DNA of 64,000 bases from Liolophura sinensis. Lineage: Eukaryota; Mollusca; Polyplacophora; Chitonida; Chitonidae. The position numbers and the translations under genes were made by a program. A model generated the notes under the pieces. That model was not told the DNA's origin and made no database searches. It saw only the letters and a program-made list of their open reading frames with translations. The stretch covers positions 71,698,028-71,762,027 of the forward strand of contig NC_088295.1 in the NCBI RefSeq assembly GCF_032854445.1. Direction: 5' to 3'. The first letter of the stretch is position 1, and each line of letters opens with the position of its first letter. Below, piece after piece: positions 41,604 to 47,600 of the stretch.

Positions 41604-44600
41604 TTATGAGGATCATGTAACCCTCAGTTCTCTGGACCAATCAGGAGGCTTGCTGTCATAGGCCACATCCATCACTCCTAAGGCACATGAGGCAGAGTTA
41701 CCTACCCTGGCTTCTCCGTCAGCTACGGAGGCTGAAACTAAACCACACAACTTATTTTAAAACTCAGGACATTCCTTGTTTTTCAATTACCTCAACTGAC
41801 TATAAAGGTATTCTATGATGAATTTTTTTTACCTTTAAACATGTCTTTAAAAACACCCATAGAATCTAAGCTCACGTCCTGCTGACAGTTGGCTGCTTGT
41901 CTGAGCATGGATCACTACATCTGTAACAGCTGTGATCATCTGGCCAAACTCCCACAAATCTCTACATCTGCTTATAGGCTAGCTTCTGTATATGATGTAG
42001 CAACTTCACACTTACATGTACTTAATGATTCTGTGGTACATTTACTGTTTTATTTTCTCTGTTCTAAACACCTATATAAATTCCTCACTTTACGACATAC
42101 TCTGTTCATGATCTGAGCCATGCTAACAAACATCTGCTTCAAGATGGAGTGCAGACCCCTGGATCACGAAGCCATCTTAGACTTCAGTCAAACTATCAAT
42201 CACTAGCCTTGGTATCTTCCTGTCAGTCATTTTAGCTGAAATTTATTTACAATAACTTACCCGAAATTTATGTTGTCAAGCAACAACTTGATCTTGTTAC
42301 GTAAGTAATAGTTATTTTAAACTGATTTGAAATTTTGGCTTAAGTCTAAGATCACTTTGTGATCCATGGGTCAAATGTTTAAAAGTTTATTCAGATTTAG
42401 TACACTTTGAAAAACCAATACTTCATCAGCATAGCTCTAAAAACTGTGGGTAGCTGCACATGGAGATGGTGTTCTATATCGCACCTACACTCACAACAAA
42501 TTCTATCAAATTTCTTGATAACTTTCAGACAATTTGGACAGTCATTATTTATCTGACTGATATTCTTCCAATTTTCTAATCGTGAATTAGATTTTCATCA
42601 AATTATAGGAATTGCTCATCATTCTACAACATGCACAACGAAGTTAGCATAATTCCCATGACAACATTTCCATCACTAATCTGCATCAATAGTTAGTTTT
42701 AGTGCTCAGAAATTTTGGTTTTAACAGATTTCCCTTAGTAGTTATTATTAATACTTGTTGCAGACATTTTTTTTAACACTATAAAATGATGGCCTATACC
42801 AGATGTTGATGACATGATAAACCTCAACAGGCAGCTCACCTGAGTCATCATCAGCTGATGCAGACACCTGTCCACTGGACACGTCTCTCTCCCCCAGAGG
42901 TGATGTTTTACTGAAGGGATTTTCCAGCAGCCATAACACACGCCTCACTTCAGAGAAGTCCCCCATCTCAGCTGCAGTTATGGCATTCTGAGCGATGTAA
43001 TTCCTCAGTATAAATCTGACAACATAAAACCAACAACAGCTTTGATTTATTGATTTATTTATTTATTTCATTGGTGTTTTACACTGTACTCACGGATATT
43101 TCACTGATACGACGGCAGCCAGCATTATGGTGGGAGGAAACCGGGCGTAGCCCGAAGGAGACCCATGACCATTCACAGGCTGCTGCCAGACCTTCCCACA
43201 TACAGCCAGAGAGGAAGCCAGCATGAGCTGGACTTGAACTCACAGCGACTGCATTGGTGAGAGGCTCCTGGGTCATGACACTGCGCTAGCGCGTTAACCA
43301 ACTGAGCCACAGAGGCCCCCAACAACAGCTTTGAGAATCTTGGACAACAATCTCTACGTTTTAACATCAACACAAAAAGTACATAAACAGAAGTAATGCT
43401 TGAAGAGTATATTGTACAAAACAAAATACACTGACTGCAAGAAATTTATTTAACCATACTACTGATAAAAGGCTGTATACTTGAATATTCAGTAAATTTA
43501 TTTGTTTAATGATTTGACATAATGACATTATGTATGATGCTGCACTCAGTAGATACATGTAGCGCTTGACACAGGTAGAATCTACCCAGAACTATTAAAT
43601 AGCCTTTGCAGAAACCATATGACCTGCTTGAGTGAGCCTGTATTCTCTCCCTTTACTTGGGATTTGTACGGGCCTGTATTTTCTCCCCTTACATGGGGTT
43701 TGTAAGGGTCTGTACTCCCCTCCACCCCCACTTACCTGGGGTTTGTATGGGTCTGTACTCCCCTCCACCCCACTTACCTGGGGTTTGTATTAGCCTGTAC
43801 TCTCTCCCCTTGCCTGGGATTTGCATGGGTCTGAACTCCCCTCCACCCCACTTACCTTGGGTTTGTAAGGGTCTGTACTCCCCTCCACCCCACTTACCTG
43901 GGGTTTGTATTAGCCTGTATTCTCTCCCCTTACCTGGGGTTTGTATGGGTCTGTACTCCCCTCCACCCCACTTACCTGGGGTTTGCCTGTATTCTCTCCC
44001 CTTACCTGGGGTTTGTATGGGTCTGTACTCCCCTACACCCCACTTACCTGGGTCTGTATTAGCCTGTATTCTCTCCCCTTACCTGGGGTTTGTATGGGAC
44101 TGTACTCCCCTCCACCCCACATACCTGTGGTCTGTATTAGCCCGTATTCTCCCCACTTACCTTGGGTTTGTATGGGTCTGTACTCCCCTACACTCCACTT
44201 ACCTGGGGTCTGTATTAGCCTGTATTCTCTCCCCTTACCTGGGGTTTGTATGAGTCTGTACTCCCCTCTACCCCACTTACCTGGGTTATGTATTAGCCTG
44301 TATTCTCCCCCCTTACCTGGGGTTTGTATGGGTCTGTACTCCCCTCTACCCCACTTACCTGGGGTATGTATTAGCCTATATTCTCTCCCCTTACCTGGGG
44401 TTTCTATGGGTCTGTACTCCCCTCCACCCAACTTACTTGGGGTTTGTATTAGCCTGTATTCTCTCCCCTAACCTGGGGTTTGTATGGGTCTGTACTCCCC
44501 TCCATCCCACTTACCTGGGGTTTGTAGAGTCCATCACCTCCACTCTCTGCCTGTTCACGGCCTCACAGTCTTCTCCCTCACCTTCCAGCCTTAGTCTGTC

Positions 44601-47600
44601 ACAGTACACAGATAACCAATCCTTCCACAGCTTTTCATTACTTTCCCGTTGATTATCTTCACTCACACCCTACAACACATATTTTATGGTACTGAAACTG
44701 AAAAATTTAGGTATTTCGTGTGATAAAAATCACACATAAACACAACAGAATTCTGTGTCAAATAATGTGCAACATTACACACAACACACAAGGTAGAAAC
44801 AAAACAGTATAGAGACTTGGGTGAAGTATACACATCCAGGATTTACTTTAGTTACAATTTAAAATTTTAAGTAAAACAATTTTTAACAAAAACATGTAGT
44901 AAATATAATATCAGGAATTAAATCAACATTTCAACTTCTTGGATCATAAACTATGCACCATGATGAAAGTTTAAATTTTGACTTAAATCAGAAATTGCTC
45001 CGTCGAAATGCCTCCTGTCAGTAAGAAAGAAAACCCCCAAAAACAACAATCTTCAATTTTTATCTGAATCATTAGGTTTAAGTATGCACAAAATTATTCA
45101 AATTATACTGCATTCCTACCATCATTTGCTACCTGTACAATAATCACCATCCATATGATTGAAGCATAATAGGGTCAGACTCACTTGTAACTCCTTGACT
45201 TTCTCTATCCTCTGAAGCTCCTGTAGGACTGACCGTTGTGCTCCTCCTAGCTGACTCAGCAGTTCTGGGTTAGACTGTAGGATCATCACAAACATCTGAA
45301 ATTGTCTGCAGGAAACAGCACGTAGTATAGAATCAGGCTTCTCTATTCACCTGTACATCTTTGCTAGTCTAAATCTGTCTTCAATTAAAAGCCTTTATTG
45401 CAAATTAATATTAAGATGACATGGTTAAAAAAAGACATGCCTGGTATTTCAAATACATGAAACAGTGTCTTGTACATTTGAGTGGTTAACTATGTCCTTG
45501 AAAAGGAATAAATCATTTAGAAACTATTCAGTCACACATTTTCACACTTTCTTCATGTTTGAAACCATTACCATGCTGCTGAGGGCAGAAAGTTTTTGTG
45601 TATTGTCTTCTGATTTGTTTTTCCTGAAAATTAAATAAACACTTGTAATGAGCAACAAGCTTCTTACTGATGAATTTTATGAAGTACGTATGTGATCTCA
45701 GTTTCTAACAAGTTGTGTTTAAAGGGCATAACGTTCTTATACCTTGGGTCCATGCGAGGCTTTGACACTGCCTTTCGCAGTTCTGCTATGGTAGAACATT
45801 GGGACAGAATGTACTGTAACACCTCAGCCTTTTTCTGTTCATGTTCATCACATCCTGGTAGGGGGAGGTCACTCAAACAGCGAAATGTGTTAGTGAAGTC
45901 AGCTGACGTCTTGTGCATGGTGTCCAAGAAATTAGCCACAAGATCCCTGTCAAAATAAAAATACCAAAAAGTTGTTTCCTCAAATCAAAACATAAACTAA
46001 AAGTCATTAACTATAATATAGCAAAAAAATAAACTCCTTTAAAAAAATCAGGTGCCAGAATGTAAATTAAAAAAGCACTAAACTAAGTGTATGTTAAGGC
46101 TGAATTTATGTTAAAATGTGTAAACGATTAGAGTCCACATTTATCATTTACTGATTGCTACCCCTGTATATATTGTTTAATTGAGTTTGAAAAATTATTT
46201 AAATAGGGTACATTAATCAGAGTAATACAGCACTTAAAATCATTAGATAATGAGGCTGGTTTCACACCTTTTTATGAGCTGTCAGAGCTTCGCCATTTAG
46301 CTCAAAAAAGCTACAGTACAAGAGTGACAACAAGCATATCCAAATTCTTCCAAACTGGTTTTCAGCCCTGAATACGGTTACAAAAACAGGTAATCAAAGA
46401 ACCCTGGAGTTATTTTTTTCCAAGTTTCCAGACAATTTGACCCTCAGGAAAACGTGGATTAACAAAACAAAACAGAAAGATTTTGTACCCTCAAAAGATA
46501 GCTGCATCTGCTCTTGCCATTTATCATCTGAAATTTATGAGAGAAATACAGCTAGCTGGTCTTGAAAAGATTTGGTTACAGTCGACTAAACCTCAAACTT
46601 AACTAAACATAAAACTGATAGACAGCAAATCTCTGTACACTAACGCCGACATCCACATTTATATTGTACGTGACTATACATAGCATACATGTGAGCTATT
46701 CGGAATGCCGCCAATAACAAGCAGTTGTCTTCACATACAAGTATGAATTTAGAATACCTCGGGGGAATTGAATGATGTTTGTTATGATCCAGACAGAGGG
46801 AAAGAATAGTGAATAAAACATATGAAATGCCTTGCCAAAGATCAAATTCAATGTCTGAATACCCGCAATCTGAAGTTTAGCCAGAGATGCCAGTCATAAA
46901 TTGGAATTTTAACGTCCTCCATTATGGGCTCAAATTGATACAGCAATATATTTGCTTTTGGCATATAGAATCCATGTCGAATTGACAGCGTTTTAGGCTA
47001 GCTACACTTGGACTGGCCATCCTTGACATCACCGACTGAGTCACAACAGGCAGCCAGTTGGAGATCAACTGGGGCAGTAAATCTAGCCATAAAAATAAAG
47101 CCATTAGTAAATTTCTCAGAAACCCTCCTGTTAATGTACTATTTAAACTGATTAAAATCTTTATAATTAGGACCACTAGCTAAATCTGGACACTACTGCT
47201 TTAAGAAACCAAATAACTGAACATTGTGAGATTACATTTACATGTACTTACTTGTCCATATCATCCACTCTCTTTATCAATCCAAACTGTAAATCACAAG
47301 GTTCCAAAATTATACATATAATATGTTAATTTAAATATCTATCAAGCAAACACATTGGCATCCTATGTGAACTGGTCACTGTTGTACGGTCTGATAGAAA
47401 TGACAGAATATGGAGTAGGGGAGACTACTCTGTCTATGATTACTGTTAAATTGACATGCATGAAGGGAGACTACTCTGTCGGACAAGCGATATAATGTTT
47501 GTTTTCCATAAAAAATACCATGAATTGCATTTTCTTTCAAAAGTACAAATAATGGATTAGACAGTACTTCTCCTGCAAAGAAGCCATACAAATGGTAATA

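Follow-up and report, generated by a model that had tools for sequence, protein, structure and literature searches.

Tandemly duplicated exon/intron boundaries, termed mirages, are known from amphioxus, where they occur in Adh3, in the globin genes BflGb6 and BflGb9 and in the troponin C gene, with similar repeats in PGBD5; according to the portions of the two reports on which we draw, they leave splicing intact and have been proposed as a source of introns (PMC3087553, PMC3902484). Here we describe an array of this kind in SELENOO of the chiton Liolophura sinensis, on the minus strand of a 64,000-nucleotide stretch of contig NC_088295.1 (positions 71,698,028 to 71,762,027, assembly GCF_032854445.1; hereafter the window, with positions counted from its first letter), where the 5' splice site of exon 11 is followed directly by 22 decoy copies of itself. 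A Liolophura chiton was published as L. japonica, a name later corrected to L. sinensis (PMC12441733).

A tandemly repeated 5' splice site in SELENOO

An earlier note on the window, made from its letters alone, had named the gene as SELENOO and placed the end of exon 11, and both assignments are borne out. Five matches to the SelO family (PF02696) fall within the window, and the protein encoded by exons 11 and 12, when joined, matches SelO structures across the joint (best E 1e-11). Exon 11 (44515..44669, minus strand, 155 nucleotides (nt), placed by this protein match) ends in ACAAACCCCAG, and the presumed authentic 5' splice site, supported by the alignment across the joint, is the GTAAG at 44510..44514 (minus strand) in the context CAG|GTAAGT, with 44514 as first intron base. 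Intron 11 (43016..44514, minus strand, about 1.5 kb, its acceptor read by eye) leads to exon 12 (42840..43015, minus strand, placed by the SelO structure match, its ends read by eye). The exon number 11 agrees with our own exon count, which consists of reading frames judged by eye.

The junction reads ...ACAAACCCCAG|GTAAGTGGG at 44515/44514, and from it the array runs on without a gap. Tandem Repeats Finder reports it in overlapping rows (43636-44494 at period 42 and 43653-44526 at period 78), its units alternating between about 36 and about 42 bp, and the minisatellite as a whole, authentic copy included, occupies 43636..44526 on the minus strand. There are 23 junction copies counting the authentic site, hence 22 decoys, whose donors span 43650..44472 (minus strand) and whose first intron-like bases lie at 44472, 44436, 44394, 44358, 44316, 44280, 44238, 44202, 44160, 44124, 44082, 44047, 44005, 43975, 43933, 43897, 43855, 43813 (a GC copy), 43777, 43735, 43692 and 43656. 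The GT is kept in 21 of the 22 and AGGTAAG in 16; eight carry a perfect CAGGTAAGT and two further decoys AAGGTAAGT. CCCAG|GTAAG is kept in 14 decoys (15 matches, one being the authentic site), so that the earlier description, 22 copies contiguous with the donor of which at least 14 keep CCAG|GTAAG, stands on both counts.

CCCAGGTAAG occurs 15 times in the window, always in the array or the authentic site, against a mean of 0.09 and a maximum of 1 in 100 shuffles, and AGGTAAG is found in the array 17 times on the minus strand (authentic site included) and not once on the plus strand. The array sequence matches once in the one assembly searched. Exonic bases in the unit, contiguity with the real exon and AG/GT in many copies are all present, and the array is thus a 5' splice-site mirage, a tandemly duplicated exon/intron boundary.

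The last 12 bases of exon 11 (44515-44526, minus strand), which are common to the repeat unit, encode part of S-T-N-P, and the asparagine-proline with the residues that follow aligns with SelO structures (MHAVNP-LYILRNY) whose chains we take to be bacterial. Because the encoded asparagine-proline is shared in this way, the end of exon 11 is older than the array, which supports the origin that the earlier note had suggested, namely that the array would derive from the exon-11 junction by tandem duplication, the last exonic bases included. An array that predated the exon was also considered, and was rejected given the alignment of these residues.

The assembly holds a second SelO gene (C10:7444300-7448300), which has few introns and ends KVSCSS, a cysteine form in contrast to the probable selenocysteine gene of the window. 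It is intronless at the exon-11/12 site, where it reads continuously NVNPRYVLRNW; since it shows neither the array nor the intron, it cannot date either.

Donor mirages in other genes

We searched the genome for three copies of CAGGTAAGT spaced 15-45 bases apart, and about 100 of the 264 match windows are among the matches listed. These come from C1, C2 and part of C3 and resolve into at least 15 distinct arrays, eight of which begin, as judged by eye, at the end of a coding exon, meaning that the last exon bases lie inside the unit or that the exon's donor opens it. The corresponding search with AAGGTAAGT (about 100 of 127 windows listed) gave 14 arrays, six of them beginning at a coding exon by eye, with two possible further cases (L045 and L057) scored as no. 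By this reading 14 of the 29 donor-motif arrays among the matches listed begin at a coding exon. The array counts are lower bounds, because the SELENOO array was itself missed, its perfect copies lying too far apart.

Five of these exons have credible database matches: one matching an RNA polymerase III RPC1 chain (5.9e-9), a GH31 exon (3e-13), a SMAD MH2 exon (3.6e-11), an exon of the diacylglycerol kinase (DGK) accessory domain (2.8e-9) followed by about 106 copies of a 44-bp unit, and a KIDINS220 ankyrin exon (8.3e-24). We take the first of these to be POLR3A. Structure-database searches with the exons of L020, L021, L025, L052 and L050 gave no credible match; DERA-like, ARFGEF-like and SLC44-like are names that we presume for exons beside the arrays. 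Given that mirages occur in unrelated genes, they point to a genome-wide repeat process rather than to regulation of SELENOO.

Individual arrays vary in anatomy. The DGK array (L027 and L043, C3 about 23271050-23275730) holds, by eye, 37 exon bases per unit, and 102 of its 107 aligned decoys are perfect CAGGTAAGT. At L008, where the polycystin match is weak (E 0.039), the exon-end copy is CAG|GCGAGT and is outscored by 34 of the 45 downstream copies aligned; this gene may either use a GC donor beside GT decoys or have had its donor shifted into the array. At L048 (C3:2904550-2906800) AAAG|ATAAGT stands in the copy within the open frame and AAAG|GTAAGT in those after it, as if the donor had arisen within a duplicated exonic unit.

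Controls and chance expectation

As controls we took arrays found with the reversed motif, of which 14 distinct ones are among the matches listed and 13 were fetched, the one on C10 being omitted. At the edges covered, 12 of the 13 have a unit free of exon sequence. Exons do lie near two of them: a choline kinase exon adjoins L035 outside the repeat, whose unit has GTAAGT without a preceding AG, and a phosphatase-like exon lies about 0.2 kb from L036, likewise outside the repeat. The thirteenth (C9:14546132) carries CAGGTAAG and is itself a mirage. By eye, then, 14 of 29 donor-motif arrays start at an exon against 0 of 12 motif-free controls (Fisher p 0.003); counting the motif-bearing array among the controls makes this 1 of 13 (p 0.015).

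In terms of match windows, forward and reverse, three copies of CAGGTAAGT give 264 against 158 for the reversed motif, and three of AAGGTAAGT give 127 against 68; the permutations GTGACTAAG and AGTCAGATG give 46 (reversal 160) and 122 (reversal 81). Because a few long arrays dominate such counts, we counted distinct arrays instead: on C1 and C2, among the matches listed, there are 14 for CAGGTAAGT, 6 for TGAATGGAC, 2 for GTGACTAAG and 4 for AGTCAGATG.

Several points weigh against the explanation preferred below. The exon count by eye was unblinded, and the right edge of one control (L029) lies outside the fetched stretch. A blind Pfam scan of the open stretches beside the arrays failed to separate the two sets: the 29 donor arrays gave three credible matches and one weak (DUF1030), the 12 controls one credible (the choline kinase exon outside the repeat) and two weak. 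In that scan both edges and both strands were covered for the controls, but a single edge and strand for each donor array, and known exons such as those of POLR3A and KIDINS220 were missed, the exons beside the arrays being short. If only the database-supported donor cases are counted, the comparison becomes 5 of 29 against 0 of 12 (p 0.30). Arrays of AAGGTAAGT on C1 and C2 are no commoner than controls among the matches listed (3 against 2, 4 and 6), and all of the evidence is DNA of one assembly, from one individual of one species. Enrichment of donor motifs among the arrays is only moderate.

One reading of the SELENOO array is placement by chance: it would be a minisatellite like any other in an intron, its unit spanning a junction by accident and splice sites playing no special part, and mirages would be no commoner than random birth makes them. 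Arbitrary 9-base motifs readily give minisatellites in the chiton genome, as the many control arrays show, and a random 42-bp unit in a 1.5-kb intron would span a given donor in 2.8 percent of arrays, so that the eight larger arrays of the window would include at least one donor-spanning case with a probability of 0.20. One donor-spanning array is accordingly unsurprising, and needs only frequent birth of minisatellites and tolerance by the splicing machinery. The excess of CAGGTAAGT arrays over the three motif permutations speaks against placement by chance; such an excess would also be expected if real donors are frequent and tandem copies containing them are tolerated, and AAGGTAAGT shows none. 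We rate simple chance placement at somewhat less than an even prospect, and treat it as a variant of the explanation preferred below, within whose probability it is counted.

Donor strength and the choice of splice site

We scored donor strength with an approximate matrix, the authentic donors being presumed from sequence. None of the 22 SELENOO decoys is stronger than the authentic donor, and the earlier count of over twelve equally strong decoys proves somewhat high: 16 of 22 do come within 1.4 bits of the authentic score, but only 8 equal it and 10 lie within 0.13 bits. Elsewhere the presumed authentic site can be the weaker one. The POLR3A donor CAG|GTAAAT is strictly outscored by 11 of 15 fetched decoys and the GH31 donor CAG|GTATGT by 13 of 18, while SMAD, DGK and KIDINS220 have no stronger decoy and equal ones in 8 of 11, 102 of 107 and 3 of 4, respectively. 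Most of the arrays compared were found through a perfect motif, a bias toward strong decoys; with this in mind, the presumed authentic donors often appear no stronger than their decoys.

The donor columns are neither purged nor conserved consistently. In the SELENOO decoys their divergence is 0.096 against 0.144 for the exonic flank, and in seven other arrays it is 1.43, 0.93, 1.22, 0.47, 1.14, 0.29 and 0.76 times that of the rest of the unit.

Any SELENOO decoy sits downstream of the authentic donor, and splicing from it would lengthen the exon by 42 to 858 nt starting AGG TAA, giving NPR-stop in the exon frame with the stop as second codon. The earlier note had pointed to this stop, correctly although trivially, because read-through of the authentic donor in its phase already supplies the TAA, and had gone on to propose a potential expression switch. 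As a full hypothesis, such a switch would have some transcripts use a decoy and either undergo nonsense-mediated decay or yield SELENOO lacking its C-terminal end and selenocysteine, and copy number would tune output. The equality of 8 of the 22 decoys with the authentic score, the position of the read-through stop at the second codon and the presence of the probable selenocysteine in the part that would be lost are all in keeping with it. A human parallel may exist in the 31-bp variable number tandem repeat (VNTR) of CBS, which a 2001 paper by Lievers, going by its title, reportedly ties to reduced CBS activity; the repeat, given as c.1444_1467+7(16_21) in the part of the source on which we draw, spans a junction (PMC2630376). 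Against a switch, the stop follows from any authentic donor of this phase and so gives no sign of design, the donor columns lack consistent extra conservation, the same structure occurs in unrelated genes, and amphioxus mirages are reported, in the portion of that work drawn upon, to leave splicing undisturbed (PMC3087553). Beyond the trivial stop codon the data lend the switch no support, and we consider it quite unlikely.

A second functional possibility is that uncut decoys bind U1, helping the first donor or blocking premature intronic polyadenylation. Near-perfect U1 sites do lie on the sense strand only (the 17 copies of AGGTAAG against none), and many POLR3A and GH31 decoys are stronger than the presumed authentic site. 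There is, however, no sign of selection for copy number or donor strength, and polyadenylation protection would hardly be needed because intron 11 is short, at only 1.5 kb. Such a landing pad seems to us very improbable.

We think it probable, with good though not complete confidence, that the array arose neutrally, as a by-product of the birth of a minisatellite, and that the exon-proximal donor is used by virtue of its position. A segment of about 36-42 bp, made up of the 12 terminal bases of exon 11 and the beginning of the intron, would have been duplicated in tandem, and the array would then have expanded and been homogenised as a minisatellite, we infer by replication slippage or unequal exchange. 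The U1 small nuclear ribonucleoprotein could in principle bind many copies in the transcript. The exon-adjacent donor would win by closing the exon from its upstream acceptor, at 155 nt rather than the 197 to 1013 nt that the decoys would require, and by being transcribed first, not by greater strength. The remainder of the array would be removed along with the intron, leaving the decoys near neutral. A broader proposal is that beside the mirages of the chiton genome position, not strength, decides which 5' splice site is used, the exon-proximal donor winning over equal or stronger copies as in POLR3A and GH31, with rows of U1 sites perhaps aiding the first donor and copy number tuning expression; it strikes us as unlikely as a whole.

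Acceptor arrays and other features

Searching for three copies of TTTTGCAG gave 175 match windows (85 with the motif reversed), and we fetched nine such arrays, hand-picked among the matches listed. Two of the nine hold the start of the following exon in the unit and are acceptor mirages: L059 (C2:25316300-25317400) at a YjeF_N exon (9.1e-12), and L065 (C6:15744400-15745500) at a CCDC97-like last exon (7e-6, just short of the Pfam cut-off). The YjeF_N exon is presumably that of NAXE. At L062 an I-set exon (3.6e-15) lies at the array end on the opposite strand, and nothing clear was seen in the other six fetched arrays. L060 (C6:41434500-41436500) has units of about 50 bp, many with TTTTGCAG, 18 bases and TTAG|GTAA, so that such a unit resembles a very small exon flanked by its two splice sites.

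Two further arrays of the window hold splice-like motifs. A 4.7-kb array of a 53-bp unit containing CTAATTTACCTTCCTGCAG (52434-57163, plus strand) lies directly before a strong acceptor, TTTTTCTCCGCAG, and the frame IGKAQHERGQTEGAFLYMYVDEKVFTEP* follows at 57163-57260; the first 45 exon bases are weakly like the unit (10 of 500 shuffles as good), and the array is a possible 3' mirage. A 46-bp array at 25348-26380 has 17 AGGTAAA on the minus strand (CACAAG|GTAAATG), and no convincing exon was found at its upstream end in three frames.

The terminal exon of SELENOO, placed by reading frame with its start not fixed, lies at 41604..41756 (minus strand), with a TGA at 41615-41613 followed by SS-stop. 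The C-terminal end thus reads ...RVT-TGA-SS-stop, and the in-frame TGA near the end is probably selenocysteine; no selenocysteine insertion sequence (SECIS) element was found at the Rfam gathering threshold within the window. Inside intron 11, between the array and exon 12, lies a tRNA-derived short interspersed element (SINE; 43040-43320), presumably RUDI-like, and similar sequence stands beside several other fetched arrays, for example L033, L037, L056 and L061.

Comparison with known systems

The recurrence of mirages in ordinary mollusc genes suggests that the birth of minisatellites in introns gives rise to them as a general by-product. Those of the chiton provide naturally occurring introns in which a single donor has to prevail over identical neighbours, so that the question of what overrides splice-site strength becomes directly testable with RNA data, and they supply raw material from which donors could shift and introns could be gained. 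The titles and abstract openings of the open-licence literature that we searched report no mirages in a mollusc.

The comparisons that follow rest on the portions of the cited papers on which we draw. Among human genes, the 31-bp VNTR of CBS has the same anatomy: by its notation, a unit of 24 exonic plus 7 intronic bases stands in 16-21 copies at a 5' splice site. It differs in that its copy number is known to vary and its unit holds more exon than intron (PMC2630376). The 844ins68 allele of the same gene carries a duplicated intron 7/exon 8 junction, of which one copy is strongly preferred; unlike the SELENOO array it is a single inserted copy present in part of the population, and the preferred copy is the more distal one (PMC2630376). 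In the potato RNA-dependent RNA polymerase gene a tandem duplication across an exon/intron boundary likewise supplies ready splice signals, but there a new intron arose, whereas SELENOO retains both the intron and its boundaries, with the copies remaining intronic (PMC4974935).

The amphioxus mirages remain the nearest described structures. Length variation and normal splicing are reported for them, while the chiton mirages are known from the DNA of one assembly. The chiton arrays share with them a minisatellite-like duplication of the boundary that is contiguous with the authentic one and carries AG/GT in many copies, and in both systems donor and acceptor versions occur (PMC3087553, PMC3902484). 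They differ in belonging to a mollusc and in scale, with 22 decoys in SELENOO and about 106 copies in the DGK gene against 3 and 6 units in two BflGb6 haplotypes. The kind of structure is thus already described, and what is new is its breadth, with mirages at the donors and acceptors of several mollusc genes.

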